Source: Aureitalea marina
Lineage (GTDB): Bacteria; Bacteroidota; Bacteroidia; Flavobacteriales; Flavobacteriaceae
Assembly (NCBI RefSeq): GCF_002943755.1
Contig: NZ_MQUB01000001.1
Span: 1,662,501 to 1,726,500, forward strand
DNA length: 64,000 nucleotides
Direction of reading: 5' to 3'
Below, in pieces: positions 24,291-51,222 of this stretch. Both the position numbers and the translations under genes were made by a program. The stretch's first letter is position 1. Every line of letters begins with the position of its first letter. The notes beneath the pieces were generated by a model. The model did not search any database and had not been told where the DNA came from. It was given only the letters and a program-made list of their open reading frames with translations.

Positions 24291-24311
24291 CGTGCGATAT
24301 TTTTAATTCCC

Positions 24312-24334
24312 GGCCAGGGGAAAAACCCCTGACC
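24312..24334 (-). promoter_or_regulatory. hairpin in the adhesin-sprF gap (also in copy B, 32893-32915)
   Basis: CAGGGG-AAAAA-CCCCTG, extended by two more pairs past a mismatch, forms a stable stem-loop between the adhesin stop and the sprF start. No T run follows on the minus strand, so it is more likely an mRNA-stabilising or processing element than a terminator. Confidence 0.45.
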
Positions 24335-24352
24335 AGAGAAATCCTTTATCTA

Positions 24353-31925: not shown

Positions 31926-33237
31926 TTTAGAAGAATCTTGGCGATAGTACCCGTTCTGATTTGTTTAGGATGTCAAATCTGAGGAAGACCTCATAGGATC
32001 CATCACTGTAGTCCTCCAACTCTTGAGTGGTGTAATCATACCCCACTCCAAGGAAAAAGCCATCACTCACCTGGAAGCCAACCATCGCACTGACCGCTGC
32101 ACTCCAGCGATAGGACGCACCCAAGGTCAACTTGTCGTACAACAGGAAGTTGGCAGACAGGTCCCACTGCAAGGGTGAACCACTGACCATCTTGACCAGG
32201 GTAGCCGGCTTGAACAGTACATTCTCACTCAGATCGAACACATAACCCATGATCAGAAAATAGTGCAAACGCTCCGCTGCTATCGACTCCGAACTACTAC
32301 CAGCACTCAAACTACTCTCATCAAAGTGCTTGGTGGTTAGAAAGTTCGGTACCGAAAGCCCCGCATAGAAGCGCTCGGTGTTGTAGTAGATCCCTGCTCC
32401 TACCTGAGGCTGAACCTTGTTGTCGATATTGTTCTGAAACCTCGGGTCGGAGATATCGAAGATGTTCAACTTGGTAAAGTCTACATCCAATACGTCGATA
32501 CCGGCCTTCAGTCCAAAGGACAGCTTACTGGCGTTGGCCAAAAACAACGAATAGGAATAATCCACATTGATGTTGGACTCCACTGCAGGTCCCAACTCGT
32601 CATGAACAATCGACAACCCAAGACCCATGTTGTCCAAGGCCCCTATCGGACCATTGACCGTAAAGGTCCCTGTCTTTGGTGCCCCATCGATATTGACCCA
32701 CTGGGTACGGCCCAGTAAACCAAAACTCAATACCTCCCGATTGCCCGCATAGGCCGGGTTGACCACCTGAGTGTTGTACATGTATTGGGTATACTGTGGG
32801 TCCTGCTGGCTAAAACCATCGAACTGAACCAGTATCACCAAAATCACAAAGGCAATAAAACTATTTCTCATCGTGCGATATTTTTAATTCCCGGCCAGGG
32901 GAAAAACCCCTGACCAGAGAAATCCTTTATCTATTAGTTTCTATTGATATATAAGTATCCTTGGTAGGCTGACTGTCCTGGGTTATCGCCCGGGAAGGTC
33001 AACACATAATAGTACGTACCACTTGGCAAGCGCTTGCCTTGCTGTATCGTCGTACGACCCTCAGATATACCTTCAAAACGTCGGCTGTTGTTGTCGTATC
33101 CATCCACCTCGAAGACCTGAACACCCCAGCGGTTGAACACCTTGAAATTGTTCTGTGGATAATCCTCGATTCCCTGGATCACCATGAAGTCATTCAATCC
33201 GTCTCCGTCTGGTGATATGGCATTGAAGATCTCGAAG
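31926..33237 (-). repeat. 1312-bp direct repeat, copy B (type B sorting domain + sprF)
   Basis: The second copy of the unit at 23345-24656, same orientation, 8581 bp away. Covers the last 100 codons of the giant adhesin, the gap with its hairpin and the whole sprF-like gene. Confidence 0.95.
31927..32871 (-). CDS. PorP/SprF-family T9SS outer-membrane protein (copy B)
   Basis: 314 residues, identical to the protein at 23346-24290, including the signal peptide and the QQDPQYTQYMYNTQVVNPAYAGN opening. Its place directly after a giant SprB-like adhesin matches the sprB-sprF order of F. johnsoniae, where SprF is required for secretion of SprB to the surface. Here it is followed by TPR and OmpA-family genes in the same operon, which may supply the periplasmic anchoring of the complex (inference). 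Complete identity with copy A points to recent duplication or gene conversion. Confidence 0.93.
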   Translation of the reverse strand: MRNSFIAFVILVILVQFDGFSQQDPQYTQYMYNTQVVNPAYAGNREVLSFGLLGRTQWVNIDGAPKTGTFTVNGPIGALDNMGLGLSIVHDELGPAVESNINVDYSYSLFLANASKLSFGLKAGIDVLDVDFTKLNIFDISDPRFQNNIDNKVQPQVGAGIYYNTERFYAGLSVPNFLTTKHFDESSLSAGSSSESIAAERLHYFLIMGYVFDLSENVLFKPATLVKMVSGSPLQWDLSANFLLYDKLTLGASYRWSAAVSAMVGFQVSDGFFLGVGYDYTTQELEDYSDGSYEVFLRFDILNKSERVLSPRFF

Positions 33238-35168
33238 TTATTACTCAGAACGATTGGCAGTACAGTCACCGTTGGATCATCTGGATCACCATCGCCCTCC
33301 TCGTCAATGTCGGTAGAGTCGTTAGGATCATCTGAAAGATCAGTTATCTGCTGTCCAAGAATATTCTCGGCAGTGGCTGTCGCCTGGTTGACAACTTCAC
33401 CATTGATGATATCTTCTTGTGTGATCACATAAGACCCTTCAAAGGTATCATCGTCGGTTTCACCCGGAAGTAACTCTTCAATTGGACCTCCAGTAATGAC
33501 AACACCTGGAAGTGGGTCATCCAGCTGGATGTTGTACAACGGAAGTGAACCAGTGTTGGTCACCGCAAAGTTGAACGTAATGGTCTCTCCAACCTGCGTA
33601 TTTCCGTCACCGTTCTCGTCATTGAAAGTTCCCGTCTTCTCAACCTCCAGAGTTCCTACAGATAGTGTAATCACACAACCTGTGCTGAAAATGGTCGGAT
33701 CGTCTTCCAGGAAGCTGTCGTTATCCGACAGATCACTAACATCTTGGCCGTCAGTAGTTGTTCCTGTAGCCGTTGCCTGGTTCACAACTTCTCCATCGAT
33801 AAGGTCCTGCAGCGTGATCTCGTACTCGGCCGTAAAGGTCATCGTATCGATCTCACCTATATCCAGGTCGATCGGTCCGCCCACCACATCCACAAGTGGA
33901 TCGGTAATGGTAACGTTTGTAAGCGCCTGATTACCTGTATTGGCAACTTGGAAGCTGTACAATAGCAGATCTCCTGGAGTAGGACAATCATTATCATCCA
34001 GATCGATAAAGTCGAATTCTTTGATCAAGGCTATACCTGGATTCTGACACAGTTCGGTCTCAGTTGGATCGTCGTTATCCACGGCAGATCCGGACAGATC
34101 ACTAACCTCAGTCTGATCAGGTGCGATAGCCGTTGCAGTAGCCTGGTTGGTCACTGTTCCAACTTCGATATCATCCTGGGTAATGGTGTAGGTTGCTGAA
34201 TAGATCCAGATCTCATCCAGATCCAACAGTCCGTCGCCATCTGTGTCTCCACTATCTGGTCCGGCAAGTTCACCACCCAATAATGGATCGTTCACCACCA
34301 CATTACTCAAGGTAACATTGCCTTCATTACTCACAGCAAAGGTGTAGATGATCGGCTTACCTGCTTCACTACAGTCACCACCATCGTCATAACTAGCTGT
34401 CTTCACAATTGCAATAGCAGGTTCCTGACATAGATCGGTCTCAGTGGCATCATCCGTGTCTACTGTTGTACCGGACTGATCGCTGACCTCTGTCTGATCT
34501 TGAGTCAGACCAGTAACAGTTGCTTGGTTCACTACCTCTCCGGCGTCTATATCATCCTGGGTAATGGTGTAACTAGCTTCGTAAATCCACTGCTCCGTTA
34601 CATCCAATTGCCCATCATTATCGGTGTCACCAGATATAGGTCCTGCGACCACACCTCCAAGGAGGTCGTCGATCAATTCAATATCGCTCAAGGATACATT
34701 ACCCTTGTTGGACACCAGGAATTGATAGTTGATCGTATCGCCTATAGACGAACATTCATCCGGGTTCTCCAATTCACCGATCTTGACTACGGCAATATCA
34801 GCTTGTTGACATAGTTCGGTTTCTGTTACATCGTCCGTATCGATAGCCGATCCAGACAGATCACTAACCGGTGACTGATCTGGTGCAATCGCACTGGCAG
34901 TAGCCTGGTTCAGAACAACTCCGGCATCTATGTCCGCTTGAGTGATTAGGTATGATCCGGTATAGATCCATTCCTCGTTCACATCCAGTAGTCCGTCATT
35001 ATCATTGTCACCACTGTCCGGTCCGGCAAGAATTCCGCCTAATAGAAGATCTTCTACCTCCACATTTGAAAGACTCACATTTCCGGTATTGTATACCGTA
35101 AAGGTGTAGGTGATCTCGTCTCCTACAGAGCTACAATCTCCTCCGATATCATAATCAGCCTCTTTCAC
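32934..35168 (-). CDS. giant SprB-like adhesin, C-terminal fragment (DUF7507 repeats + type B sorting domain)
   Basis: 744 residues counted from the first ATG, but the reading frame is open and homologous up to the frameshift at about 35264 (776 residues). No signal peptide or start context supports a separate gene, so this is the 3' part of the giant adhesin. It contains five DUF7507-type repeats (IAIVKTASYDDGGDCSEAG-type openings) that are less alike than those in the central array. It ends in the 100-residue CHU_C/type B domain (FEIFNAISPDGDGLNDF to GYLYINRN), identical to that of the vWA adhesin. This end is what T9SS recognises, so without the frame being restored the large N-terminal part would lack a secretion signal. 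Confidence 0.88.
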   Translation of the reverse strand: MKEADYDIGGDCSSVGDEITYTFTVYNTGNVSLSNVEVEDLLLGGILAGPDSGDNDNDGLLDVNEEWIYTGSYLITQADIDAGVVLNQATASAIAPDQSPVSDLSGSAIDTDDVTETELCQQADIAVVKIGELENPDECSSIGDTINYQFLVSNKGNVSLSDIELIDDLLGGVVAGPISGDTDNDGQLDVTEQWIYEASYTITQDDIDAGEVVNQATVTGLTQDQTEVSDQSGTTVDTDDATETDLCQEPAIAIVKTASYDDGGDCSEAGKPIIYTFAVSNEGNVTLSNVVVNDPLLGGELAGPDSGDTDGDGLLDLDEIWIYSATYTITQDDIEVGTVTNQATATAIAPDQTEVSDLSGSAVDNDDPTETELCQNPGIALIKEFDFIDLDDNDCPTPGDLLLYSFQVANTGNQALTNVTITDPLVDVVGGPIDLDIGEIDTMTFTAEYEITLQDLIDGEVVNQATATGTTTDGQDVSDLSDNDSFLEDDPTIFSTGCVITLSVGTLEVEKTGTFNDENGDGNTQVGETITFNFAVTNTGSLPLYNIQLDDPLPGVVITGGPIEELLPGETDDDTFEGSYVITQEDIINGEVVNQATATAENILGQQITDLSDDPNDSTDIDEEGDGDPDDPTVTVLPIVLSNNFEIFNAISPDGDGLNDFMVIQGIEDYPQNNFKVFNRWGVQVFEVDGYDNNSRRFEGISEGRTTIQQGKRLPSGTYYYVLTFPGDNPGQSAYQGYLYINRN

Positions 35169-35173
35169 TATGG

Positions 35174-38100
35174 CTAGATCTGCGATTTGACATAGATCCG
35201 TAATGGTAGTCTCATCGTCATCGACAGTTGCTCCGGAAAGATCACTGACCTCAGACTGATCAGGGCTGTTCCTGTAGCAGTTGCTTGGTTGGAAACAGAT
35301 CCTGTGTCTATATCATCCAGACTAATTCCATAGCTTGCCGTATAGGTCCATACTTCGTCTATATCCAGAAGTCCGTCATTATTGGTATCACCACTATTTG
35401 GGCCGGAGATTACTCCACCCACCAGCGGATCTTCCACTACAATATTGGACAAGGTTACGTTTCCAGTATTATATACCTGGAAAGTATAGTCAATTATATC
35501 ACCTATAGCACTACACTCGCCATTAGGCTCGTAACTGGCTGTCTTTACAATTGCGATAACAGGAATCTGACAGATCGGTGTGATCGTCTCTTCGTCATCA
35601 GATATCGTAGCACCAGAGGTGTCACTTACTTCGTTGTCTTGTGGATCATCGGCAGTTACCGTGGCCGTGTTGGTCACAGAACCAGCGTCGATGTCAGCCT
35701 GCGTAACCGCATAGCTACCCTCGTAGATCCATACCTCGCCTACACCAAGGATATCATCATCTCCAGCATCGCCACTTACATAAGCAGCATCGGCTACCAG
35801 TGGGTCATCCAGTACAACATTATCCAGCGATACATTACCCTGGTTGCTCACCTCGAAGCGATACGTGATCAGTCCGCCAACAGTTACATCGTAACAGTTG
35901 TCTGTCGGATCCAGATCCACAGTAGCTGTCTTCACCAAGGCAATGGCAGCATCCTGACAGATCGGAGTCACCGTCTCTTCGTCATCAGATATCGTAGCAC
36001 CAGAGGTGTCACTTACTTCGTTGTCTTGTGGATCATCGGCAGTTACCGTGGCCGTGTTGGTCACAGAACCAGCGTCGATGTCAGCCTGCGTAACCGCATA
36101 GCTACCCTCGTAGATCCATACCTCGCCTACACCAAGGATATCATCATCTCCAGCATCGCCACTTACATAAGCCGCATTGGCTACCAGTGGGTCATCCAGT
36201 ACAACATTATCCAGCGATACATTACCCTGGTTGCTCACCTCGAAGCGATACGTGATCAGTCCGCCAACAGTTACATCGTAACAGTTGTCTGTCGGATCCA
36301 GATCCACAGTAGCTGTCTTCACCAAGGCAATGGCAGCATCCTGACAGATCGGAGTCACCGTCTCTTCGTCATCAGATATCGTAGCACCAGAGGTGTCACT
36401 TACTTCGTTGTCTTGTGGATCATCGGCAGTTACCGTGGCCGTGTTGGTCACAGAACCAGCGTCGATGTCAGCCTGCGTAACCGCATAGCTACCCTCGTAG
36501 ATCCATACCTCGCCTACACCAAGGATATCATCATCTCCAGCATCGCCACTTACATAAGCAGCATCGGCTACCAGTGGGTCATCCAGTACAACATTATCCA
36601 GCGATACATTACCCTGGTTGCTCACCTCGAAGCGATACGTGATCAGTCCGCCAACAGTTACATCGTAACAGTTGTCTGTCGGATCCAGATCCACAGTAGC
36701 TGTCTTCACCAAGGCAATGGCAGCATCCTGACAGATCGGAGTCACCGTCTCTTCGTCATCAGATATCGTAGCACCAGAGGTGTCACTTACTTCGTTGTCT
36801 TGTGGATCATCGGCAGTTACCGTGGCCGTGTTGGTCACAGAACCAGCGTCGATGTCAGCCTGCGTAACCGCATAGCTACCCTCGTAGATCCATACCTCGC
36901 CTACGCCAAGGATATCATCATCTCCAGCATCGCCACTTACATAAGCAGCATTGGCTACCAGTGGGTCATCCAGCACAACATTATCCAGTGATACATTACC
37001 CTGGTTGCTCACCTCGAAGCGATACGTGATCAGTCCGCCAACAGTTACATCGTAACAGTTGTCTGTCGGATCCAGATCCACAGTAGCTGTCTTCACCAAG
37101 GCAATGGCAGCATCCTGACAGATCGGAGTCACCGTCTCTTCGTCATCAGATATCGTAGCACCAGAGGTGTCACTTACTTCGTTGTCTTGTGGATCATCGG
37201 CAGTTACCGTGGCCGTGTTGGTCACAGAACCAGCGTCGATGTCAGCCTGCGTAACCGCATAGCTACCCTCGTAGATCCATACCTCGCCTACACCAAGGAT
37301 ATCATCATCTCCAGCATCGCCACTTACATAAGCCGCATTGGCTACCAGTGGGTCATCCAGTACAACATTATCCAGCGATACATTACCCTGGTTGCTCACC
37401 TCGAAGCGATACGTGATCAGTCCGCCAACAGTTACATCGTAACAGTTGTCTGTCGGATCCAGATCCACAGTAGCTGTCTTCACCAAGGCAATGGCAGCAT
37501 CCTGACAGATCGGAGTCACCGTCTCTTCGTCATCAGATATCGTAGCACCAGAGGTGTCACTTACTTCGTTGTCTTGTGGATCATCGGCAGTTACCGTGGC
37601 CGTGTTGGTCACAGAACCAGCGTCGATGTCAGCCTGCGTAACCGCATAGCTACCCTCGTAGATCCATACCTCGCCTACACCAAGGATATCATCATCTCCA
37701 GCATCGCCACTTACATAAGCAGCATCGGCTACCAGTGGGTCATCCAGCACAACATTATCCAGTGATACATTACCCTGGTTGCTCACCTCGAAGCGATACG
37801 TGATCAGTCCGCCAACCGTTACATCGTAACAGTTGTCTGTCGGATCCAGATCCACAGTAGCTGTCTTCACCAAGGCAATGGCAGCATCCTGACAGATCGG
37901 AGTCACCGTCTCTTCGTCATCAGAGATCGTGGCACCAGAGGTGTCATCTACTTCGTTATCCTGTGGATCGTCAGCTGTTACCGTGGCCGTGTTGGTCACA
38001 GATCCAGCGTCGATGTCAGCCTGCGTAACCGCATAGCTACCCTCGTAGATCCATACCTCGCCTACACCAAGGATATCATCATCTCCAGCATCGCCACTTA

Positions 38101-41100
38101 CATAAGCAGCATCGGCTACCAGTGGGTCATCCAGCACAACATTATCCAGTGATACATTACCCTGGTTGCTCACCTCGAAGCGATACGTGATCAGTCCGCC
38201 AACCGTTACATCGTAACAGTTGTCTGTCGGATCCAGATCCACAGTAGCTGTCTTCACCAAGGCAATGGCAGCATCCTGACAGATCGGAGTCACCGTCTCT
38301 TCGTCATCAGATATCGTAGCACCAGAGGTGTCACTTACTTCGTTGTCTTGTGGATCATCGGCAGTTACCGTGGCCGTGTTGGTCACAGATCCAGCGTCGA
38401 TGTCAGCCTGCGTAACCGCATAGCTACCCTCGTAGATCCATACCTCGCCTACACCAAGGATATCATCATCTCCAGCATCGCCACTTACATAAGCCGCATC
38501 GGCTACCAGTGGGTCATCCAGCACAACATTATCCAGTGATACATTACCCTGGTTGCTCACCTCGAAGCGATACGTGATCAGTCCGCCAACAGTTACATCG
38601 TAACAGTTGTCTGTCGGATCCAGATCCACAGTAGCTGTCTTCACCAAGGCAATGGCAGCATCCTGACAGATCGGAGTCACCGTCTCTTCGTCATCAGAGA
38701 TCGTGGCACCAGAGGTGTCATCTACTTCGTTATCCTGTGGATCGTCAGCTGTTACCGTGGCCGTGTTGGTCACAGATCCAGCGTCGATGTCAGCCTGCGT
38801 AACCGCATAGCTACCCTCGTAGATCCATACCTCGCCTACACCAAGGATATCATCATCTCCAGCATCGCCACTTACATAAGCAGCATCGGCTACCAGTGGG
38901 TCATCCAGCACAACATTATCCAGTGATACATTACCCTGGTTGCTCACCTCGAAGCGATACGTGATCAGTCCGCCAACCGTTACATCGTAACAGTTGTCTG
39001 TCGGATCCAGATCCACAGTAGCTGTCTTCACCAAGGCAATGGCAGCATCCTGACAGATCGGAGTCACCGTCTCTTCGTCATCAGAGATCGTGGCACCAGA
39101 GGTGTCATCTACTTCGTTATCCTGTGGATCGTCAGCTGTTACCGTGGCCGTGTTGGTCACAGATCCAGCGTCGATGTCAGCCTGCGTAACCGCATAGCTA
39201 CCCTCGTAGATCCATACCTCGCCTACACCAAGGATATCATCATCTCCAGCATCGCCACTTACATAAGCAGCATTGGCTACCAGTGGGTCATCCAGCACAA
39301 CATTATCCAGTGATACATTACCCTGGTTGCTCACCTCGAAGCGATACGTGATCAGTCCGCCAACAGTTACATCGTAACAGTTGTCTGTCGGATCCAGATC
39401 CACAGTAGCTGTCTTCACCAAGGCAATGGCAGCATCCTGACAGATCGGTGTAACTGTCGGATCATTCTCCAAGTTGGAGTCATCATCCGAGTCATCCGTT
39501 ACATTCGGGCCACTCGGTGGTGTTCCCGTAACCATCGCCTGGTTAGAGAAAGTACCCGCATCGATATCAGCTTGGGTTACCTCATAGGTAGCCGTATAAG
39601 TCGTATTGTCTACAGCGTTAGGTGCCAGAGAAGCAATTGGGCCTCCGCTCAGCACAACACCAGTGGCATTGTCACTGACCACTACATTGGTCAAGGTCAC
39701 ATTACCCGTGTTGGTGACCGTAAAGCTGTAATTGATGATACTACCTACAGATAGATCAACACATCCCGTAGTCGGATCAGCCTGTACATCGGCCGTCTTG
39801 ATCAGTGCAATACTAGCGCTGGTACAGATCGGTGTAACTGTCAGATCGTCTTCCAGATTCGAGTTATCATCAGAGTCATCCGTTACATTAGGGCCACTCG
39901 GTGGTGTTCCCGTAACCATCGCCTGGTTAGAGAAAGTACCCGCATCGATATCAGCCTGGGTTACCTCGTAGGTAGCCGTATAAGTCGTATTGTCTACAGC
40001 GTTAGGTGCCAGAGAAGCAATCGGACCACCAACAAGTACTACACCAGCAGCATTGTCACTGACCACTACATTGGTCAAGGTCACATTACCCGTGTTGGTT
40101 ACCGTAAAGCTATAGTTGATCACACTACCTACAGATAGATCAACACATCCCGTAGTCGGATCAGCCTGGACATCAGCCGTCTTGATCAGTGCAATACTTG
40201 CACTGGTACAGATCGGTGTAACTGTCGGATCATCCTCCAGATTCGAGTTATCATCAGAGTCATCCGTTACATTAGGGCCACTCGGTGGTGTTCCCGTAAC
40301 CATCGCCTGGTTAGAGAAAGTACCCGCATCGATATCAGCCTGGGTTACCTCGTAGGTAGCCGTATAAGTCGTATTGTCTACAGCGTTAGGTGCCAGAGAA
40401 GCAATTGGGCCTCCGCTCAGCACAACACCAGTGGCATTGTCACTGACCACTACATTGGTCAAGGTCACATTACCCGTGTTGGTTACCGTAAAGCTATAGT
40501 TGATCACACTACCTACAGATAGATCAACACATCCCGTAGTCGGATCAGCCTGTACATCGGCCGTCTTGATCAGAGCTATACTGGCAGAAGTACAGATCGG
40601 TGTAACCGTAGGATCATCCTCCAGATTACTGTCATCATCAGAGTCATCCGTTACATTCGGGCCACTCGGTGGTGTTCCCGTAACCATCGCCTGGTTAGAG
40701 AAAGTTCCCGCATCGATATCAGCTTGGGTTACCTCATAGGTAGCCGTATAAGTCGTATTGTCTACAGCGTTAGGTGCCAGAGAAGCAATTGGGCCTCCGC
40801 TCAGCACAACACCAGTGGCATTGTCACTGACCACTACATTGGTCAAGGTCACATTACCCGTGTTGGTTACAGTAAAACTATAATTGATGATACTACCTAC
40901 CGATAGATCAACACATCCCGTAGTCGGATCAGCCTGTACATCGGCCGTCTTGATCAAGGCAATACTGGCACTGGTACAGATCGGTGTAACCGTAGGATCA
41001 TCCTCCAGATTACTGTCATCATCAGAGTCATCCGTTACATTCGGGCCACTCGGTGGTGTTCCCGTAACCATCGCCTGGTTAGAGAAAGTTCCCGCATCGA

Positions 41101-44100
41101 TATCAGCTTGGGTTACCTCATAGGTAGCCGTATAAGTCGTATTGTCTACAGCGTTAGGTGCCAGAGAAGCAATTGGGCCTCCGCTCAGCACAACACCAGT
41201 GGCATTGTCACTGACCACTACATTGGTCAAGGTCACATTACCCGTGTTGGTTACAGTAAAACTATAATTGATGATACTACCTACCGATAGATCAACACAT
41301 CCCGTAGTCGGATCAGCCTGTACATCGGCCGTCTTGATCAAGGCAATACTGGCACTCTGGCAAAGGGGTGTAACCGTCGGATCATTCTCAATAACAGAAT
41401 TGTCATCTGAAAAATCATTAGTCAGGCCTCCAGGTCCAGCCCCTGTTGTTGATGCAACAACTTCTGCTTGATTCGATACTTCTCCAGCATCAATATCGGC
41501 CTGAGTAATGGTATAATCTGCTGTATAGATCCACTCCTCGTCAACTTGAAGGAATCCATCATTATTATCGTCTCCGCTGTCCGGTCCAGTAATAATACCA
41601 CCCAGCATCTGATCGGTCAACTCAACATTGGTCAAAGTAACAGTACCCTCATTAGATACCGTAAAAGTATAGGTAATGGTCTCCTGCGGATCACTACACT
41701 GATCTCCATTCTCATCATTGAGTACTCCGGTCTTGATCACGGCTATACTGGCCAGGTTACAAATTGGTGTAACCGTGGGCTCATTCTCAGTATAGCTATC
41801 ATCATCCGATTGATCAGTCACATCCTGTCCACTAGGTGGAGTACCCGAGACCGATGCCTGGTTGGTAAACTGTCCGGCATCCAGATCATCCTGGGTGATT
41901 ACATAGGTAGCTGTATAAGTCGTCGTGTCTTCTTCCCCTGGATCAAGAGAAGCTATTGGACTTCCAACCAATACTACACCCGGGGTATTATCAACCACAG
42001 TTACATTGGTCAAAGTCGTATTTCCGGTATTCCTAATACTAAATGTATAGTTGATCACATCGCCAACTGAGGCAATACAATTTCCGTTATTGTCAAAGTT
42101 GGTAAAATCAGAAGTCTTGATCAGAGCTATACTGGCAGAAGTACAGATCGGTGTAACTGTCGGATCATTCTCTAAGTTGGAGTCATCATCCGAGTCATCC
42201 GTTACATTCGGGCCACTCGGTGGAGTACCGGTAACCATCGCCTGGTTGGAGAAAGTACCAGCATCAATGTCTGCCTGGGTAACCGTATAACTAGCCGTAT
42301 AGGTCGTATTGTCAACCTCGCCCGGATCGAGTGAAGCAATCGGACCACCAACAAGTACTACACCAGCAGCATTGTCACTGACCACTACATTGGTCAAGGT
42401 CACATTACCCGTGTTGGTTACCGTAAAGCTGTAGTTGATGATACTACCCACGACCAGATCAACACATCCAGTCTGTGGATCAGCCTGGACATCAGCCGTC
42501 TTGATCAAGGCAATACTGGCACTCTGGCAAAGGGGTGTAACCGTCGGATCATTCTCAATAACAGAATTGTCATCTGAAAAATCATTAGTCAGGCCTCCAG
42601 GTCCAGCCCCTGTTGTTGATGCAACAACTTCTGCTTGATTCGATACTTCTCCAGCATCAATATCGGCCTGAGTAATGGTATAATCTGCTGTATAGATCCA
42701 CTCCTCGTCAACTTGAAGGAATCCATCATTATTATCGTCTCCGCTGTCCGGTCCAGTAATAATACCACCCAGCATCTGATCGGTCAACTCAACATTGGTC
42801 AAAGTAACAGTACCCTCATTAGATACCGTAAAAGTATAGGTAATGGTCTCCTGCGGATCACTACACTGATCTCCATTCTCATCATTGAGTACTCCGGTCT
42901 TGATCACGGCTATACTGGCCAGGTTACAAATTGGTGTAACCGTGGGCTCATTCTCAGTATAGCTATCATCATCCGATTGATCAGTCACATCCTGTCCACT
43001 AGGTGGAGTACCCGAGACCGATGCCTGGTTGGTAAACTGTCCGGCATCCAGATCATCCTGGGTGATTACATAGGTAGCTGTATAAGTCGTCGTGTCTTCT
43101 TCCCCTGGATCAAGAGAAGCAATTGGACTTCCAACCAATACTACACCCGGGGTATTATCAACCACAGTTACATTGGTCAAAGTCGTATTTCCGGTATTCC
43201 TAATACTAAATGTATAGTTGATCACATCGCCAACTGAGGCAATACAATTTCCGTTATTGTCAAAGTTGGTAAAATCAGAAGTCTTGATCAGAGCTATACT
43301 GGCAGAAGTACAGATCGGTGTAACCGTAGGATCATCCTCCAGATTACTGTCATCATCAGAGTCATCCGTTACATTCGGGCCACTCGGTGGTGTTCCCGTA
43401 ACCATCGCCTGGTTCGAGAAGGTTCCAGCATCAATATCAGCCTGAGTTACCTCGTAGGTAGCACTATATGTCGTATTGTCTACCGCTCCAGGGGCCAGGG
43501 AAGCAATTGGGCCTCCGCTTAGCACAACACCAGCAGCATTGTCACTGACCACTACATTGGTCAAGGTCACATTACCCGTGTTGGTTACCGTAAAGCTGTA
43601 GTTGATGATACTACCCACGACCAGATCAACACATCCAGTCTGTGGATCAGCCTGTACATCAGCCGTCTTGATCAAGGCAATACTGGCACTCTGGCAAAGG
43701 GGTGTAACCGTCGGATCATTCTCAATAACAGAATTGTCATCTGAAAAATCATTAGTCAGGCCTCCAGGTCCAGCCCCTGTTGTTGATGCAACAACTTCTG
43801 CTTGATTCGATACTTCTCCAGCATCAATATCGGCCTGAGTAATGGTATAATCTGCTGTATAGATCCACTCCTCGTCAACTTGAAGGAATCCATCATTATT
43901 ATCGTCTCCGCTGTCCGGTCCAGTAATAATACCACCCAGCATCTGATCGGTCAACTCAACATTGGTCAAAGTAACAGTACCCTCATTAGATACCGTAAAA
44001 GTATAGGTAATGGTCTCCTGCGGATCACTACACTGATCTCCATTCTCATCATTGAGTACTCCGGTCTTGATCACGGCTATACTGGCCAGGTTACAAATTG

Positions 44101-47100
44101 GTGTAACCGTGGGCTCATTCTCAGTATAGCTATCATCATCCGATTGATCAGTCACATCCTGTCCACTAGGTGGAGTACCCGAGACCGATGCCTGGTTGGT
44201 AAACTGTCCGGCATCCAGATCATCCTGGGTGATTACATAGGTAGCTGTATAAGTCGTCGTGTCTTCTTCCCCTGGATCAAGAGAAGCTATTGGACTTCCA
44301 ACCAATACTACACCCGGGGTATTATCAACCACAGTTACATTGGTCAAAGTCGTATTTCCGGTATTCCTAATACTAAATGTATAGTTGATCACATCGCCAA
44401 CTGAGGCAATACAATTTCCGTTATTGTCAAAGTTGGTAAAATCAGAAGTCTTGATCAGAGCTATACTGGCAGAAGTACAGATCGGTGTAACTGTCGGATC
44501 ATTCTCTAAGTTGGAGTCATCATCCGAGTCATCCGTTACATTCGGGCCACTCGGTGGAGTACCGGTAACCATCGCCTGGTTGGAGAAAGTACCAGCATCA
44601 ATGTCTGCCTGGGTAACCGTATAACTAGCCGTATAGGTCGTATTGTCAACCTCGCCCGGATCGAGTGAAGCAATCGGACCACCAACAAGTACTACACCAG
44701 CAGCATTGTCACTGACCACTACATTGGTCAAGGTCACATTACCCGTGTTGGTTACCGTAAAGCTGTAGTTGATGATACTACCCACGACCAGATCAACACA
44801 TCCAGTCTGTGGATCAGCCTGGACATCAGCCGTCTTGATCAAGGCAATACTGGCACTCTGGCAAAGGGGTGTAACCGTCGGATCATTCTCAATAACAGAA
44901 TTGTCATCTGAAAAATCATTAGTCAGGCCTCCAGGTCCAGCCCCTGTTGTTGATGCAACAACTTCTGCTTGATTCGATACTTCTCCAGCATCAATATCGG
45001 CCTGAGTAATGGTATAATCTGCTGTATAGATCCACTCCTCGTCAACTTGAAGGAATCCATCATTATTATCGTCTCCGCTGTCCGGTCCAGTAATAATACC
45101 ACCCAGCATCTGATCGGTCAACTCAACATTGGTCAAAGTAACAGTACCCTCATTAGATACCGTAAAAGTATAGGTAATGGTCTCCTGCGGATCACTACAC
45201 TGATCTCCATTCTCATCATTGAGTACTCCGGTCTTGATCACGGCTATACTGGCCAGGTTACAAATTGGTGTAACCGTGGGCTCATTCTCAGTATAGCTAT
45301 CATCATCCGATTGATCAGTCACATCCTGTCCACTAGGTGGAGTACCCGAGACCGATGCCTGGTTGGTAAACTGTCCGGCATCCAGATCATCCTGGGTGAT
45401 TACATAGGTAGCTGTATAAGTCGTCGTGTCTTCTTCCCCTGGATCAAGAGAAGCAATTGGACTTCCAACCAATACTACACCCGGGGTATTATCAACCACA
45501 GTTACATTGGTCAAAGTCGTATTTCCGGTATTCCTAATACTAAATGTATAGTTGATCACATCGCCAACTGAGGCAATACAATTTCCGTTATTGTCAAAGT
45601 TGGTAAAATCAGAAGTCTTGATCAGAGCTATACTGGCAGAAGTACAGATCGGTGTAACCGTAGGATCATCCTCCAGATTACTGTCATCATCAGAGTCATC
45701 CGTTACATTCGGGCCACTCGGTGGTGTTCCCGTAACCATCGCCTGGTTCGAGAAGGTTCCAGCATCAATATCAGCCTGAGTTACCTCGTAGGTAGCACTA
45801 TATGTCGTATTGTCTACCGCTCCAGGGGCCAGGGAAGCAATTGGGCCTCCGCTTAGCACAACACCAGCAGCATTGTCACTGACCACTACATTGGTCAAGG
45901 TCACATTACCCGTGTTGGTTACCGTAAAGCTGTAGTTGATGATACTACCCACGACCAGATCAACACATCCAGTCTGTGGATCAGCCTGTACATCGGCCGT
46001 CTTGATCAAAGCAATACTGGCAGAAGTACAGATCGGTGTAACTGTCTCTGTATCGTTACTGGCATCAGTACCAGAAGTATCATCCACCTGCTGGTTCAGA
46101 TCGTCAATAGCCGTAACTTCGGCTTGATTGACAACCTCCCCGACGTCAATATCATCTTGATCTACTGTGTAGGAACCTCCATAGGTCCAAGTCTCGTTGG
46201 TATCGAGGAAACCGTCGTTATTAGTGTCACCAGAAACAAAGTTGATCGGCGAAACTTTAGGGTCGGTCACTTGTACGCTGGACAATGGTACGTTACCGGT
46301 ATTGGTAACCGTAAAGATGTAATCGATGCTTCCGTTCACTGTAATATCCACACAGTTTCCATTCGGGTTCAAGGTCACGTCGGCAACCTTAACCAAGGCA
46401 ATTCCTGGTTGGTTACAGCTAATTGTAATAGTATCCGTGAACTCACAACCGTTCTCGTCGGTCACAGTCACACTGTGACTACCTGTCGGCAGATCTGTGG
46501 CCGTGGCCGTAGTTTGACTTCCGGCACTGGCACTCCACTGATAGGTATAATCTCCTGTTCCGCCTGATGGATTTACAGTAGCAGATCCATCTGAACAATT
46601 ATTTGCAGCAGTTGCATTAACGGTGGTAATGGTAGCCGTAACTGCCTCTGCAGGTTCAGTGATCGTTATATTTAATTCCTTGGTCAGTCCAATGAAATCT
46701 GTAATCAATACAGTATAGGTTCCGGCGGTCAGTCCGGTCTGGTCTTCTTGTCCGTCTACAATTCCTGAACCATCGTTGGTTGACCAAGCAAAGGTAAATG
46801 GTGCAACACCACCGCTAACGGTCACATCTATCTGACCAGTCGCATCATCCGTACAAAGTACATCGACCTGAGTGAAATCGGCGTCTAATCTAGGTCCGGT
46901 CACACAGAACGGTGATGACGGTGGATAAGAAACCTGTATGGTCTGAGTTGGGTTAATACTGAATCGAACTGTTGCTGTTGGACGGAAATCGAGGAATCCA
47001 TCATCTGTCTCTATCCATACTCCACCTACAAATTCCCATCCTGGCCAGTCTGTTGGATTTCCTTGTCCATCAACTTCAGCTCCAGGCCAAAGAATCCGAT

Positions 47101-49198
47101 CACTGATAATTGTATTTCCATTTGTCGGGAAGATATCGGTCTGAACCACCTGATTATTAGAATCCAGCCACTCAACTACCAGATCTTCGTTAGAGGTAAA
47201 ATTATCCAAGGTGACCGTGAAATCCAGATACGGGGTATCATTATCACAGACTTCTTGTGCGTTAATAATGATCACAGGCGCAACAACAGTCACAGTCACC
47301 ACAGCGGTATCACAAACGTCCGGATAATCAACACTACAGATCTGATAGGTCAGTTGATATTGACCAGGAGGTGTATTTGCTGCAACATCGACACTACCAT
47401 CTGAATTTAGTTCCAGATAACCATTTGGCTCTGCAACAGTTTCCGTCAAGGTTACGTCCTGTGGATCCACCGGTGATCCGTTAAAGGTATCATTGTCAAA
47501 GACATTTAAAACATCTTCGATCTCCACGTTCACACCGGCCAATGGTCCAGCAGAATCATCCACTGCGTCAATAATTGGACAAGTATCAAATGAAGTAGTT
47601 GTTTCTCCATCCAATGTGATGTCCGTGGGGTGTGAATCGTCAGATACCGGAGCATTACCTGGACCCATTCCGCTTGCCGTGGCCGTATTCAATACCTGCC
47701 CGGCATCCAGATCAGTCTGGGTGAGGTTATAATTTGCTGTGAAGATCCAGGTTTCTCCGACATCAAGAATATCATTATCGTTATCGTCTCCACTGTTCGG
47801 AACAGTGAGTAATGCATTGAGTAGTGGATCACTGATTCCTACTGAGGAAACAGTAACATTTCCTTCATTAGATAAAGTAAAGGTATAGGTGATCGATTCT
47901 CCAGGTTCGAGACATCCATTTTGGTTGTCATCGTTCAATTCTCCAGTTTTCAGCAGGGCAATAACCGCTTCTTGACAAACAGGAGTAATGGTCTCATCGT
48001 CATCCGATATGGTCGCACCCGAAGTATCCTCTACTGTCTCTCCAATCGATTCTCCACTAACAGTAGCGGTATTGGTAACGCTACCTGTTTGTAAATCCGA
48101 TTGGGTTACCTGATAACTACCTAAATAAATCCAGGTCTCATCCAGCTGTAAGATCCCATCGCCATCATCACCGGAATCATAAGCAGCATTGGCTACGAGT
48201 GGATCGTCGAGAACGATATTGGAGAGCTCTACATCACCCTGATTAGTGACAGTAAAGATGTAATTGATGGTTCCGTCTACGGGAACAGCAACGCAGCCAT
48301 TAACTGGGTCTAGAACCACATCGGCTTCTTTCACCAAAGCGATGGCCGGGTCCTGACAAATTGGAGTAATGGTTGGATCATCATCGCTCACGGTTGCTCC
48401 GGAAACATCTCCAACGGCATCGCCATTAGGAGCTTCCCCAGTTGCAGTGGCGGTATTTTCAATCTCTCCGGCTTCTATGTCATCTTGAGTAACGGTATGA
48501 CTAGCCGTGTAGATCCATGTTTCGGTTACGTCTAGCTTGTTATCATTATCAGCATCACCACTCGCGGGTCCTGTAATGACACCACCTAAGAAAGTGTCTT
48601 CCAAGACAACCGCAGAGATACTGACGTTCCCTTGGTTGGTCAATGTGAATTTATAATTGATTGTACCATCAACAGCTATGTCCACACATCCATCGTCCGG
48701 ATCTAAGGTCACCTCCGCCTCTTTAACCAAGGCGATCTCAGGCCGCTGACACAACTGAATGATGGTCGGATCATCTTCGGGTACCAATAATGTGAGGTAG
48801 AACCCTTCATCATTACAATCCTGAGGATTGATCAATCCACAGTTTTCTGGTATGGGTAGATTGACCCCATTTCCGTTAGCGGTACACCAATTTATAGTAT
48901 TGCTAAAAAAGCCACTATTCGCATTGACATTCTCGATATTTCCGTTGCGGGCATAGATGTAACCGGTTCCGAAAGTACCGACACTATTGTCAGTGGTTTC
49001 GTCCTTATAATTATTATCACAGATCTGGACTGCACCATCTATAAAGTTGATGGTACCGGCTTTGTTCGTTACATTTCCGTTTGGCAACCGAAGTAATGCC
49101 GTAGTTATGTTGACGACGTTACCAGAACTTTCGATGGTAAGATCTCCATTTGAAATAACCAATATCTCATTGATATTCAAGATTGCATTACCATTCAT
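35174..49198 (-). CDS. giant SprB-like adhesin, central fragment (SprB and DUF7507 repeats)
   Basis: A 4674-residue open frame without signal peptide or sorting domain; the middle of one giant gene. Residue map: 1-140 beta-solenoid-like (NGNAILNINEILVISNGDLTI); about 150-540 three DUF7507 repeats; about 545-770 Ig/cadherin-like and unassigned; about 770-930 two SprB repeats (GGVAPFTFAWS, GGTGDYTYQWS, TVTDENGC). A DUF7507 repeat follows at about 930-1056. Residues 1057-2612 are four 389-residue super-repeats (three DUF7507 modules each), 2613-3252 five 128-residue repeats, and 3253-4542 ten 129-residue repeats, with one further repeat from 4543. The last 29 residues (after 4645) are out of frame. 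Repeats are rich in Asp and have paired Cys, suggesting Ca-bound, stalk-like beta-sandwiches (inference). Expected to form a long surface fibre used in gliding or attachment. Confidence 0.9.
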   Translation of the reverse strand: MNGNAILNINEILVISNGDLTIESSGNVVNITTALLRLPNGNVTNKAGTINFIDGAVQICDNNYKDETTDNSVGTFGTGYIYARNGNIENVNANSGFFSNTINWCTANGNGVNLPIPENCGLINPQDCNDEGFYLTLLVPEDDPTIIQLCQRPEIALVKEAEVTLDPDDGCVDIAVDGTINYKFTLTNQGNVSISAVVLEDTFLGGVITGPASGDADNDNKLDVTETWIYTASHTVTQDDIEAGEIENTATATGEAPNGDAVGDVSGATVSDDDPTITPICQDPAIALVKEADVVLDPVNGCVAVPVDGTINYIFTVTNQGDVELSNIVLDDPLVANAAYDSGDDGDGILQLDETWIYLGSYQVTQSDLQTGSVTNTATVSGESIGETVEDTSGATISDDDETITPVCQEAVIALLKTGELNDDNQNGCLEPGESITYTFTLSNEGNVTVSSVGISDPLLNALLTVPNSGDDNDNDILDVGETWIFTANYNLTQTDLDAGQVLNTATASGMGPGNAPVSDDSHPTDITLDGETTTSFDTCPIIDAVDDSAGPLAGVNVEIEDVLNVFDNDTFNGSPVDPQDVTLTETVAEPNGYLELNSDGSVDVAANTPPGQYQLTYQICSVDYPDVCDTAVVTVTVVAPVIIINAQEVCDNDTPYLDFTVTLDNFTSNEDLVVEWLDSNNQVVQTDIFPTNGNTIISDRILWPGAEVDGQGNPTDWPGWEFVGGVWIETDDGFLDFRPTATVRFSINPTQTIQVSYPPSSPFCVTGPRLDADFTQVDVLCTDDATGQIDVTVSGGVAPFTFAWSTNDGSGIVDGQEDQTGLTAGTYTVLITDFIGLTKELNITITEPAEAVTATITTVNATAANNCSDGSATVNPSGGTGDYTYQWSASAGSQTTATATDLPTGSHSVTVTDENGCEFTDTITISCNQPGIALVKVADVTLNPNGNCVDITVNGSIDYIFTVTNTGNVPLSSVQVTDPKVSPINFVSGDTNNDGFLDTNETWTYGGSYTVDQDDIDVGEVVNQAEVTAIDDLNQQVDDTSGTDASNDTETVTPICTSASIALIKTADVQADPQTGCVDLVVGSIINYSFTVTNTGNVTLTNVVVSDNAAGVVLSGGPIASLAPGAVDNTTYSATYEVTQADIDAGTFSNQAMVTGTPPSGPNVTDDSDDDSNLEDDPTVTPICTSASIALIKTSDFTNFDNNGNCIASVGDVINYTFSIRNTGNTTLTNVTVVDNTPGVVLVGSPIASLDPGEEDTTTYTATYVITQDDLDAGQFTNQASVSGTPPSGQDVTDQSDDDSYTENEPTVTPICNLASIAVIKTGVLNDENGDQCSDPQETITYTFTVSNEGTVTLTNVELTDQMLGGIITGPDSGDDNNDGFLQVDEEWIYTADYTITQADIDAGEVSNQAEVVASTTGAGPGGLTNDFSDDNSVIENDPTVTPLCQSASIALIKTADVQADPQTGCVDLVVGSIINYSFTVTNTGNVTLTNVVVSDNAAGVVLVGGPIASLDPGEVDNTTYTASYTVTQADIDAGTFSNQAMVTGTPPSGPNVTDDSDDDSNLENDPTVTPICTSASIALIKTSDFTNFDNNGNCIASVGDVINYTFSIRNTGNTTLTNVTVVDNTPGVVLVGSPIASLDPGEEDTTTYTATYVITQDDLDAGQFTNQASVSGTPPSGQDVTDQSDDDSYTENEPTVTPICNLASIAVIKTGVLNDENGDQCSDPQETITYTFTVSNEGTVTLTNVELTDQMLGGIITGPDSGDDNNDGFLQVDEEWIYTADYTITQADIDAGEVSNQAEVVASTTGAGPGGLTNDFSDDNSVIENDPTVTPLCQSASIALIKTADVQADPQTGCVDLVVGSIINYSFTVTNTGNVTLTNVVVSDNAAGVVLSGGPIASLAPGAVDNTTYSATYEVTQADIDAGTFSNQAMVTGTPPSGPNVTDDSDDDSNLEDDPTVTPICTSASIALIKTSDFTNFDNNGNCIASVGDVINYTFSIRNTGNTTLTNVTVVDNTPGVVLVGSPIASLDPGEEDTTTYTATYVITQDDLDAGQFTNQASVSGTPPSGQDVTDQSDDDSYTENEPTVTPICNLASIAVIKTGVLNDENGDQCSDPQETITYTFTVSNEGTVTLTNVELTDQMLGGIITGPDSGDDNNDGFLQVDEEWIYTADYTITQADIDAGEVSNQAEVVASTTGAGPGGLTNDFSDDNSVIENDPTVTPLCQSASIALIKTADVQADPQTGCVDLVVGSIINYSFTVTNTGNVTLTNVVVSDNAAGVVLVGGPIASLDPGEVDNTTYTASYTVTQADIDAGTFSNQAMVTGTPPSGPNVTDDSDDDSNLENDPTVTPICTSASIALIKTSDFTNFDNNGNCIASVGDVINYTFSIRNTGNTTLTNVTVVDNTPGVVLVGSPIASLDPGEEDTTTYTATYVITQDDLDAGQFTNQASVSGTPPSGQDVTDQSDDDSYTENEPTVTPICNLASIAVIKTGVLNDENGDQCSDPQETITYTFTVSNEGTVTLTNVELTDQMLGGIITGPDSGDDNNDGFLQVDEEWIYTADYTITQADIDAGEVSNQAEVVASTTGAGPGGLTNDFSDDNSVIENDPTVTPLCQSASIALIKTADVQADPTTGCVDLSVGSIINYSFTVTNTGNVTLTNVVVSDNATGVVLSGGPIASLAPNAVDNTTYTATYEVTQADIDAGTFSNQAMVTGTPPSGPNVTDDSDDDSNLEDDPTVTPICTSASIALIKTADVQADPTTGCVDLSVGSIINYSFTVTNTGNVTLTNVVVSDNATGVVLSGGPIASLAPNAVDNTTYTATYEVTQADIDAGTFSNQAMVTGTPPSGPNVTDDSDDDSNLEDDPTVTPICTSASIALIKTADVQADPTTGCVDLSVGSVINYSFTVTNTGNVTLTNVVVSDNATGVVLSGGPIASLAPNAVDNTTYTATYEVTQADIDAGTFSNQAMVTGTPPSGPNVTDDSDDNSNLEDDPTVTPICTSASIALIKTADVQADPTTGCVDLSVGSVINYSFTVTNTGNVTLTNVVVSDNAAGVVLVGGPIASLAPNAVDNTTYTATYEVTQADIDAGTFSNQAMVTGTPPSGPNVTDDSDDNSNLEDDLTVTPICTSASIALIKTADVQADPTTGCVDLSVGSIINYSFTVTNTGNVTLTNVVVSDNATGVVLSGGPIASLAPNAVDNTTYTATYEVTQADIDAGTFSNQAMVTGTPPSGPNVTDDSDDDSNLENDPTVTPICQDAAIALVKTATVDLDPTDNCYDVTVGGLITYRFEVSNQGNVSLDNVVLDDPLVANAAYVSGDAGDDDILGVGEVWIYEGSYAVTQADIDAGSVTNTATVTADDPQDNEVDDTSGATISDDEETVTPICQDAAIALVKTATVDLDPTDNCYDVTVGGLITYRFEVSNQGNVSLDNVVLDDPLVADAAYVSGDAGDDDILGVGEVWIYEGSYAVTQADIDAGSVTNTATVTADDPQDNEVDDTSGATISDDEETVTPICQDAAIALVKTATVDLDPTDNCYDVTVGGLITYRFEVSNQGNVSLDNVVLDDPLVADAAYVSGDAGDDDILGVGEVWIYEGSYAVTQADIDAGSVTNTATVTADDPQDNEVSDTSGATISDDEETVTPICQDAAIALVKTATVDLDPTDNCYDVTVGGLITYRFEVSNQGNVSLDNVVLDDPLVADAAYVSGDAGDDDILGVGEVWIYEGSYAVTQADIDAGSVTNTATVTADDPQDNEVDDTSGATISDDEETVTPICQDAAIALVKTATVDLDPTDNCYDVTVGGLITYRFEVSNQGNVSLDNVVLDDPLVADAAYVSGDAGDDDILGVGEVWIYEGSYAVTQADIDAGSVTNTATVTADDPQDNEVSDTSGATISDDEETVTPICQDAAIALVKTATVDLDPTDNCYDVTVGGLITYRFEVSNQGNVSLDNVVLDDPLVANAAYVSGDAGDDDILGVGEVWIYEGSYAVTQADIDAGSVTNTATVTADDPQDNEVSDTSGATISDDEETVTPICQDAAIALVKTATVDLDPTDNCYDVTVGGLITYRFEVSNQGNVSLDNVVLDDPLVANAAYVSGDAGDDDILGVGEVWIYEGSYAVTQADIDAGSVTNTATVTADDPQDNEVSDTSGATISDDEETVTPICQDAAIALVKTATVDLDPTDNCYDVTVGGLITYRFEVSNQGNVSLDNVVLDDPLVADAAYVSGDAGDDDILGVGEVWIYEGSYAVTQADIDAGSVTNTATVTADDPQDNEVSDTSGATISDDEETVTPICQDAAIALVKTATVDLDPTDNCYDVTVGGLITYRFEVSNQGNVSLDNVVLDDPLVANAAYVSGDAGDDDILGVGEVWIYEGSYAVTQADIDAGSVTNTATVTADDPQDNEVSDTSGATISDDEETVTPICQDAAIALVKTATVDLDPTDNCYDVTVGGLITYRFEVSNQGNVSLDNVVLDDPLVADAAYVSGDAGDDDILGVGEVWIYEGSYAVTQADIDAGSVTNTATVTADDPQDNEVSDTSGATISDDEETITPICQIPVIAIVKTASYEPNGECSAIGDIIDYTFQVYNTGNVTLSNIVVEDPLVGGVISGPNSGDTNNDGLLDIDEVWTYTASYGISLDDIDTGSVSNQATATGTALISLRSVIFPEQLSMTMRLPLRIYVKSQI
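35263..35266 (-). other. frameshift junction 2 in the giant adhesin (short C run)
   Basis: The minus strand reads GGAACAGCCCTGATCAG. The upstream frame gives G-T-A-L-I-S and then nonsense until 35174; shifting by one base gives G-T-A-P-D-Q-S-E-V-S-D-L-S, the standard repeat ending, and continues into the 744-residue frame. One extra C (CCCC instead of CCC) restores the frame. Confidence 0.85.
35570..39439 (-). repeat. tandem array, 10 x 387 bp (129-residue DUF7507 units)
   Basis: The Cys codon marker (ACA on plus, before GATCGG) recurs at exactly 387-bp steps from 35570 to 39440, giving ten units. Units are nearly identical at DNA level. Variants alternate at a few fixed places, such as ADAAY/ANAAY and EVDDTSG/EVSDTSG, which implies recent duplication and shuffling. 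Confidence 0.97.
39440..41359 (-). repeat. tandem array, 5 x 384 bp (128-residue DUF7507 units)
   Basis: Five units at exact 384-bp steps between 39440 and 41360, each with the TADVQADPTTGCVDLSVGS opening. Minor variants occur (ATGVVLSGG / AAGVVLVGG; one unit has EDDLTV instead of EDDPTV). Confidence 0.97.
41360..46027 (-). repeat. tandem array, 4 x 1167 bp, arranged as 2 x 2334 bp
   Basis: Each 1167-bp unit encodes three different DUF7507 modules (TADVQADPQTGC, TSDFTNFDNNGNC, TGVLNDENGDQC). Units 1 and 3 share variants (VVLSGGPIASLAPGAVDNTTYSATYE) and units 2 and 4 share others (VVLVGGPIASLDPGEVDNTTYTASYT), so a 2334-bp block (41360-43693, 43694-46027) has itself been duplicated. Confidence 0.95.
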
Positions 49199-51222
49199 CA
49201 GTACCCCCCGGAGGTCAATTCTACCCGGGTATTGATATTAACTACATCCGTATTGTTCAGATTGATCGGAGGAACATTACCGCCAGACCATGTATTAGGA
49301 TTGGTCCAGGAACCAGGATTGATACTTGTATAAATTGGAGTCCGAGTAGTTCCGTACATGTTTTTAGGTCGTAGCGGATTAGGTGCGTTGACGCTAATAT
49401 CATCAGAAAGGTCAGAGGTAATCTGTCCATTCCCTACTCCCGTAACAGTTGCCTGATTCTCTACCTGACCTAGATCGATATCATCTTGAGTGATAATGTA
49501 ATTTGCGGAATAGGACCACATTTCATTAATGTCCAATTTACCGTCGTTATCAGTGTCACCTGATATTGGGCCAGGAATGTCCCCACCGAGAAGTGGATCA
49601 TTAACGACAATATTTTCGATCTCCACTGAGCTCAGGTTTCGAACTACGAAATCATAGGTTATGGTTTCACCGGCATCAGAACAATTGTCCTGATTCTCGT
49701 CATTCAGGGTTCCTGCCTTCGTAATTTCTATACGAGGAGCCGGAGGCTGAATACAAACAGGATAAGTATTGAACGATCGTCTTCCACATTCGTCAGTGAT
49801 CTCTACTTGGATAACACAGCATTCAACATCCGATACTATACCGGGATTGAATATGGGCATAGAACTCGTGGGGTTGTCGAAAGTCCCGAAGGAACAAGAA
49901 GTGGTCCATTCGAAACTAAGGGTTCCGCTTCCTGTAGAACCAGACAGATCGAACTGAATAGGTTCTCCGCTTGAAATCGTTGATGGAACAGTTCCCGTAT
50001 CATCAACGATGGTTGGAACCTTGGAATTAGGTGCTAAAAGAGAGAAGTTCAGGAATGCCCTGATTGCAGCAACCTGTCCGTTTTCTCCACCGTTATCATC
50101 TGGATCATCGTTCTTATCCTTGAATTCGTGACCGGCTTCGTACATGACCATACCTCGGTCGTCATCACCAAACGCCCGACCATACGCTAAGAGCGCGGCA
50201 GGACCGTCAATATCCAAACCTCCGATACCATTAATTACATCGGGCTGGTTTGGATCATATATCGCGACTGTTGTTGAACTTCTCCAACTACCGGTTGGAA
50301 ATAGGACATAAACGCGTTCTGCTCCCTCGTCAAATATCTTTCCAGGTTTACCCAAAAATTGCATAAAAGGATCCGCGGGGAATCCCTGCACATAATTGTC
50401 AAAATCGTTGGATGCATCCTCATGGGCTCCGTCGTAGATCAGGGAGTATCCAAAGTCCTCTTGAGCTTGAGTGGGAGGCACTGTAGGGTCATTAGCCAGA
50501 AAATTTGCTCGGACACTGGAGTCGTTTGGATCCACTAAGTTCTCCAAACCTGATACAGCCTTACATCCGGTCCATATCCAACCTGCACTACCACCATCGG
50601 CGATGGGGGAGTTCCAATTGATCAGATTACCGTGCTTGTCCCATGTGACATCCGCGTGAGGTAATAAATAAACGTCATCACAAGAAGTTAGATCGTCCGC
50701 TTCGGCCTCTCTGAAGTCCGTGTTTGGAATACCTGCTGCATCTAGGTACTTCTTGGTGATCTTTACCCCGTTCTGAGGGTCTAAGACCCAGTTTCCGTAA
50801 TAATTGATCTCCTGGTAAACCGGAATGATCTTATCGGTCAGTGTTGTATAGGTAACTACACCCTCATCCTCCCAGTCGCTGATCTCATCCAGTACGGCTT
50901 GGGTAAGTGAGCCTTGCTCGATAATGAATGGACCACCTCTGAATGTTTTCCCGTCTACCGTAAAGTCAGTGCCACCACTTATCTTGGTCGGTTCTATAGA
51001 CCAGATCACAGTTACATTGTAATTCTTGATCAAGGAATAAACCAACCCGTAAGGTTTGACTCCATTGTCTATGGTCTGAGGGGATATACCCATGTCGATG
51101 ATCACCGATCCTGAAGGTATCTCCTTGGTTTGACCAAAGGCAAAAAACGAAAATAATAATGCAACCGTGACTGAGTAAAGCGCTCGCTTGATCTCAACAA
51201 TCGTAAACTTTTGCATGTCCAT
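49198..51222 (-). CDS. giant SprB-like adhesin, N-terminal fragment
   Basis: A 674-residue frame with a signal peptide (about 1-30, ending FFAFGQ). It contains a roughly 380-residue conserved-looking globular domain (SGSVIIDMGISPQT..YGLVYSLIKNYNVTVIWSI; DDVYLLPHADVTWDKHGNLINWN; GWIWTGCKAVSGLENLVD; ALLAYGRAFGDDDRGMVMYEAGHEF) of unknown function. Then follow an Ig/PKD-like segment (about 400-490; FDLSGSTGSGTLSFEW), one DUF7507 repeat (about 500-615) and the beginning of a beta-solenoid-like stretch (NPNTWSGGNVPPINLNNTD). It ends at a TGA overlapping the ATG of the next frame (TGATGA), exactly inside that beta-solenoid motif. Adding one G to the G6 run at 49204-49209 fuses it seamlessly to the central fragment. 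This piece has no T9SS tail of its own. Confidence 0.88.
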   Translation of the reverse strand: MDMQKFTIVEIKRALYSVTVALLFSFFAFGQTKEIPSGSVIIDMGISPQTIDNGVKPYGLVYSLIKNYNVTVIWSIEPTKISGGTDFTVDGKTFRGGPFIIEQGSLTQAVLDEISDWEDEGVVTYTTLTDKIIPVYQEINYYGNWVLDPQNGVKITKKYLDAAGIPNTDFREAEADDLTSCDDVYLLPHADVTWDKHGNLINWNSPIADGGSAGWIWTGCKAVSGLENLVDPNDSSVRANFLANDPTVPPTQAQEDFGYSLIYDGAHEDASNDFDNYVQGFPADPFMQFLGKPGKIFDEGAERVYVLFPTGSWRSSTTVAIYDPNQPDVINGIGGLDIDGPAALLAYGRAFGDDDRGMVMYEAGHEFKDKNDDPDDNGGENGQVAAIRAFLNFSLLAPNSKVPTIVDDTGTVPSTISSGEPIQFDLSGSTGSGTLSFEWTTSCSFGTFDNPTSSMPIFNPGIVSDVECCVIQVEITDECGRRSFNTYPVCIQPPAPRIEITKAGTLNDENQDNCSDAGETITYDFVVRNLSSVEIENIVVNDPLLGGDIPGPISGDTDNDGKLDINEMWSYSANYIITQDDIDLGQVENQATVTGVGNGQITSDLSDDISVNAPNPLRPKNMYGTTRTPIYTSINPGSWTNPNTWSGGNVPPINLNNTDVVNINTRVELTSGGY
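49204..49209 (-). other. frameshift junction 1 in the giant adhesin (G6 run)
   Basis: The minus strand reads ACCTCCGGGGGGTACTGATGA. As read it encodes T-S-G-G-Y-stop; with seven G it becomes T-S-G-G-V-L-M-N-G-N and enters the central fragment in the middle of the same structural motif. Confidence 0.85.

Follow-up and report, generated by a model that had tools for sequence, protein, structure and literature searches.

Three consecutive open reading frames on the minus strand of the Aureitalea marina genome assembly are almost certainly one ordinary, very large flavobacterial surface-adhesin gene cut by two one-base losses. The gene is very probably intact, about 18.3 kb long, and codes for a single adhesin of about 6,100 residues exported by the type IX secretion system (T9SS), two G/C runs having each come out one base short in the assembly. 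Because an assembly error is the most probable cause of the two interruptions, it is most probably the annotation that is in error here, while the gene itself is ordinary. The analysis covered a stretch of 64,000 nucleotides (the window), to which all coordinates refer unless preceded by the label of another stretch of the same assembly.

Organization of the adhesin gene

The first-pass annotation, made from the letters of the window, had joined frames of 674, 4674 and 744 residues into one giant protein. Their coordinates and lengths are exact, and they are arranged one after another on the minus strand:

49198..51222, minus strand: frame 1, 674 aa, with a hydrophobic leader, an N-terminal domain that matches no Pfam family, a single DUF7507 repeat and the start of the break-1 domain
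35174..49198, minus strand: frame 2, 4,674 aa, with 32 DUF7507 stretches and two SprB repeats, lacking both leader and sorting tail
32934..35168, minus strand: frame 3, 744 aa, with five DUF7507 stretches followed by the T9SS type B tail

When joined, they comprise 18,289 nt plus two bases, or 6,097 codons (6,096 aa and a stop), in agreement with the length previously obtained by adding one base per junction, with the exact figure hinging on a 2,334-bp duplication whose copy number in the assembly is uncertain. The parts are complementary, as had been stated: a hydrophobic leader, read from the sequence, is found in frame 1 only (it begins MDMQKFTIVEIKRALYSVTVALLFSFFAFGQ, and was judged by eye to be a Sec signal peptide), and the T9SS type B sorting domain in frame 3 only, where CHU_C scores 87.5 bits (cut-off 27), and TIGR04131 33.7 bits for the protein (cut-off 35) and 37.6 bits in the genome search. 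DUF7507 repeats (PF24346) scoring above the Pfam cut-off occupy 38 stretches in the three frames (1 + 32 + 5), which is the number that had been estimated; those of frame 2 are overlapped by 10 DUF11 stretches, and both of the SprB repeats that had been counted are indeed present in the same frame. The following internal features were delimited:

46772..46873, minus strand: the better-scoring of the two SprB repeats (PF13573, Pfam)
41328..45994, minus strand: perfect tandem duplication with a period of 2,334 bp and six DUF7507 units per copy
39440..41389, minus strand: 384-bp repeats, 5.1 copies, 94% alike
35567..39448, minus strand: 387-bp repeats, 10 copies, 98% alike
32946..33233, minus strand: CHU_C / TIGR04131 type B sorting domain (Pfam and NCBIfam models)

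Within the tandem duplication, the exact match extends over 2,333 bp (41328-43660 is identical to 43662-45994). With its C-terminal type B domain, its N-terminal leader and a PorP/SprF-family carrier gene directly downstream, the adhesin is a T9SS type B substrate, and it is a DUF7507 repeat protein.

The two breaks

Coding frame was followed along the window with a hexamer hidden Markov model trained on long frames of the same genome, with the adhesin left out. The model changes frame at 49199-49206 and at 35250-35252, coding being uninterrupted on both sides with no non-coding gap, and both breaks carry the sign of one missing base:

49199..49209, minus strand: break 1, with one-base-deletion sign, a run of C at 49204-49209 on the plus strand, and a TGATG stop/start overlap after it
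48779..49350, minus strand: break-1 domain, divided between frames 1 and 2 and continuous in relative G005
35250..35265, minus strand: break 2, with one-base-deletion sign and a CCC run (35263-35265) within a DUF7507 repeat

It had been claimed that each break falls inside a structural motif, and both do. The read-through break-1 domain was used as a query against 397 genomes of the family, and in G005 a stop-free open frame that spans the junction matches it from query position 8 to 195 with 48% identity. At break 2, the expected continuation of the DUF7507 repeat is found in the other frame. Judged from the alignment, break 1 cannot be a gene boundary, because one domain spans both of its sides.

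The same junctions can be viewed as boundaries between three separate proteins, the second starting from the ATG of the TGATG overlap, which resembles a coupled gene start, a common arrangement, and the third from the GTG at 35168, only 5 bases past the frame-2 stop. However, both breaks cut domains, the coding signal of frame 3 begins about 80 bases ahead of its GTG, and a leader is missing from both frame 2 and frame 3, and a tail from frame 2, so that neither could be both exported and anchored alone; three proteins are therefore highly improbable. The reading of the three frames as one gene is strongly supported by their complementary parts, by the intact break-1 domain of G005 and by a genome-wide excess of deletions, to which we now turn.

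Single-base deletions elsewhere in the assembly

Frame changes inside coding stretches were sought in 40 stretches of 20 kb from the same assembly, 800 kb in all, in a census that was screened by eye rather than exhaustively and that was compared with a single control genome, relative G411. Breaks were accepted on homology or on unbroken coding sense, yielding 13 broken conserved genes outside the adhesin, or roughly 16 per Mb of sampled sequence, 13/13 with the one-base-deletion sign and nearly all at G/C runs:

L050:16451, L054:13629, L055:13705, L056:3940, L058:985, L063:15976, L069:3337, L070:7725, L077:5226, L077:17986, L079:18498, L080:9955, L082:13417: census frameshift positions

The single “insertion” call, at L073:19114, was discarded, being taken as the boundary to a RidA-like gene.

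The NAD-dependent DNA ligase LigA is among the broken genes, its NAD+-binding domain Ia being in one frame and its adenylation domain in the next, and no second match to the LigA adenylation domain was found elsewhere in the genome. Bacterial LigA is essential, and therefore a true break in ligA is not credible. Formate-tetrahydrofolate ligase, the only copy, is likewise broken, one frame covering model positions 1-270 and another 269-556, as are RecQ, tryptophan 2,3-dioxygenase, a cyclophilin-FKBP isomerase, PurK, two FG-GAP proteins, an asparaginase, a GNAT protein and others. With the adhesin's two breaks included, a G/C run of at least 4 lies within 15 bases of 11/15 breaks, as opposed to 9% of random positions. 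The same screen of G411 yielded 2 convincing cases in 400 kb, one per sign and without G/C runs. Moreover, G/C runs of at least 7 occur at 1.2 per Mb in this assembly versus 15 per Mb in G411, even though G411 is lower in G+C. This error pattern is the one left by incomplete polishing of a long-read assembly; PMC8442456 states that long-read assemblies contain errors of several kinds. The two adhesin breaks are most plausibly deletions introduced by the assembly into a single gene of about 6,096 codons.

At the census density of 13 per 800 kb, 0.30 breaks would be expected in the adhesin gene, with P = 0.036 for two or more. Finding two breaks against this expectation leaves the chief remaining doubt, which weighs less because the gene was selected as a broken one. 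The two breaks would be accounted for if both frameshifts were real and the gene were a recent pseudogene, yielding at most a truncated secreted fragment of 674 residues: the breaks are present in the assembly as given, and giant adhesin genes do decay. Yet the occurrence of the same break type in the genome's only LigA and formate-tetrahydrofolate ligase points to the assembly, the 18 kb contain no stops or frame changes apart from the two breaks, and the repeats are near-identical, making recent decay improbable.

Break 1 sits on the sole G/C run of six in the adhesin gene, and a backward slip on this G6 just before the stop would restore the frame, with the TGATG overlap coming next, as might be expected of a programmed or phase-variable frameshift acting as an on/off switch or producing a short and a long form of the adhesin. 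Programmed frameshifting was rejected mainly on two grounds, namely that break 2 offers no slippery sequence (CCC only) and that housekeeping genes are broken at the same type of run; in addition, the G005 version of the break-1 domain is unbroken, and a run of six is short for phase variation. We regard such a switch as very unlikely, and retain the reading of one intact gene with two bases lost in assembly.

The main value of this case is thus a warning for annotation, in that single bases have been lost at G/C runs. The largest gene and many enzymes look broken in this assembly, and calls of gene absence or of pseudogenes made from it are unsafe.

Carrier, neighbors and a smaller paralogue

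Downstream of the adhesin, the window contains the following genes:

31927..32871, minus strand: PorP/SprF-family carrier, 314 aa, directly downstream of the adhesin (PF11751, 291 bits; TIGR03519, 272 bits)
31496..31909, minus strand: small exported protein with a leader ahead of TPR-looking sequence, located between the carrier and the OmpA-like gene
29522..31486, minus strand: TPR-PD40-OmpA protein of the CHU_0125 / PorE type, with matches below NCBIfam cut-offs
24353..28777, minus strand: intact smaller paralogue, 1,474 aa, with VWA ahead of DUF7507 repeats, CHU_C and the same tail as the adhesin
23346..24290, minus strand: second SprF-family gene, identical in DNA to 31927-32871

Neither the 314 aa of the carrier nor its identical copy contains a cysteine. 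The regions 23345-24656 and 31926-33237 are perfectly identical over about 1.31 kb of DNA, which corresponds to the last 300-odd bases of each adhesin gene, i.e. the sorting tail, and the whole SprF-family gene, with the identity ending within one or two bases of the carrier stop codon. This has the appearance of a tail-carrier cassette that was recently copied or underwent gene conversion. The pair 28787-29278 and 24353-28777 was considered as another broken gene and rejected, each having its own leader and an ordinary boundary.

Another PorP/SprF-family protein is encoded at L127:4287-5288 (minus strand) and carries a CDC motif at its C-terminus, ending in ...DCDCPAIN; its 20-kb stretch has no type B adhesin gene beside it. 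It is a candidate for the genome's gliding or T9SS-linked carrier. The gliding machinery is likely to be present, since the genome has GldJ (956 bits).

The arrangement at the adhesin locus suggests how its product could reach the surface. The leader of frame 1 would direct Sec export, and the type B tail would provide for passage via the type IX translocon, after which the adjacent SprF-family carrier would capture the adhesin and anchor it at the outer membrane. The PorE/OmpA-like protein encoded after the carrier probably ties the carrier to the cell wall, and the 38-repeat stalk would extend the N-terminal domain well away from the cell to serve in attachment. The adhesin is expected to be fixed and non-gliding, because its carrier has no twin cysteines of the kind that couple SprF to the gliding track.

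The N-terminal domain

The first-pass annotation had described the N-terminal domain as unknown, and indeed we obtained no convincing Pfam family or PDB sequence match for it:

50008..51132, minus strand: N-terminal domain, about 375 residues (about residues 31-405), with no Pfam or credible PDB match

A PDB profile search gave a best match at chance level (E 0.59), Pfam models applied to 17 members of the domain family gave weak PKD matches at the ends only, and a scan of the genome contigs with the domain detected no relatives. Single-sequence structure prediction returned a pLDDT of 33.5, which is too low to use. The domain is present in 15 others of 397 family genomes, and 30 of its positions are invariant (17 sequences). 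On contigs that are long enough, it usually opens, and in a few cases lies inside, single frames of 1,300 to >4,400 codons, with backbones composed of Big_9, DUF11, HYR or DUF7507 and with recognizable T9SS tails in some; that relatives start single-frame giants with the same domain lends further support to one gene here. In one shorter relative protein the domain is followed by an OmpA domain (two relatives of similar size were outside the OmpA scan).

It is possible, if somewhat short of probable when all parts are taken together, that this domain is an unnamed ligand-binding or enzymatic head carried on varied T9SS stalks (Ig-like, DUF11, HYR and DUF7507) and on an OmpA anchor, and that it is placed here on a giant adhesin of the fixed kind, with a tail and carrier that have recently been copied from one neighboring adhesin gene to another as an exchangeable anchoring cassette. 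The case adds a giant type B adhesin with an uncharacterized N-terminal domain and a carrier without the gliding cysteines; it is the unnamed domain and the copied tail-carrier cassette that deserve a second look.

Comparison with known type B systems

Type B tails are captured by a carrier of the PorP/SprF family, commonly encoded directly downstream (PMC12618676), and the pairing of such a tail with the directly downstream carrier gene is documented in more than one report (PMC12618676, PMC9143113). Type B proteins appear to be anchored via carrier binding; in Porphyromonas gingivalis, PorE forms a complex with PorP and the type B protein (PMC9143113). In Flavobacterium johnsoniae, attachment to the gliding track, as well as gliding itself, depends on the Cys-X-Cys in the C-terminal tail of SprF, although export does not (PMC12635249), and some type B substrates are static, with Fjoh_3952 staying fixed (PMC12618676).

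The adhesin shares with SprB, the 6,497-aa gliding adhesin of F. johnsoniae, its size class, a leader together with a type B T9SS tail, a PorP/SprF-family carrier gene directly downstream, and a few SprB repeats (PMC9870892, PMC12618676). In contrast to SprB, the body of the adhesin is made of DUF7507/DUF11 repeats, there is no evidence here for a sprC-sprD-sprB-sprF operon, and the carrier lacks the Cys-X-Cys tail, i.e. the C-terminal feature associated with gliding (PMC12635249). The earlier designation “SprB-like” holds, therefore, for size, tail type and the adjacent SprF-family carrier, but not for the C-terminal twin cysteines of SprF, and it is because this gliding feature is absent that we do not file the protein as SprB; judged by its predicted features, it resembles SprB in general plan, but neither that name nor the term gliding adhesin should be applied to it.

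In the PorE-PorP-PG1035 complex of P. gingivalis, a type B tail protein, a PorP-family barrel and a PorE/OmpA-like protein come together, and counterparts of all three are encoded here in one stretch (PMC9143113). PG1035, however, is not a giant adhesin, and the OmpA-like protein of the window scores under the PorE and CHU_0125 model cut-offs. With the static type B substrates of the Fjoh_3952 type in F. johnsoniae the adhesin has in common a type B tail, a dedicated SprF-like carrier and the character of a putative adhesin; the fixed position reported for Fjoh_3952 (PMC12618676) is, for the adhesin described here, a prediction only, and we consider the latter a candidate for the class of fixed type B adhesins that was described in 2025.
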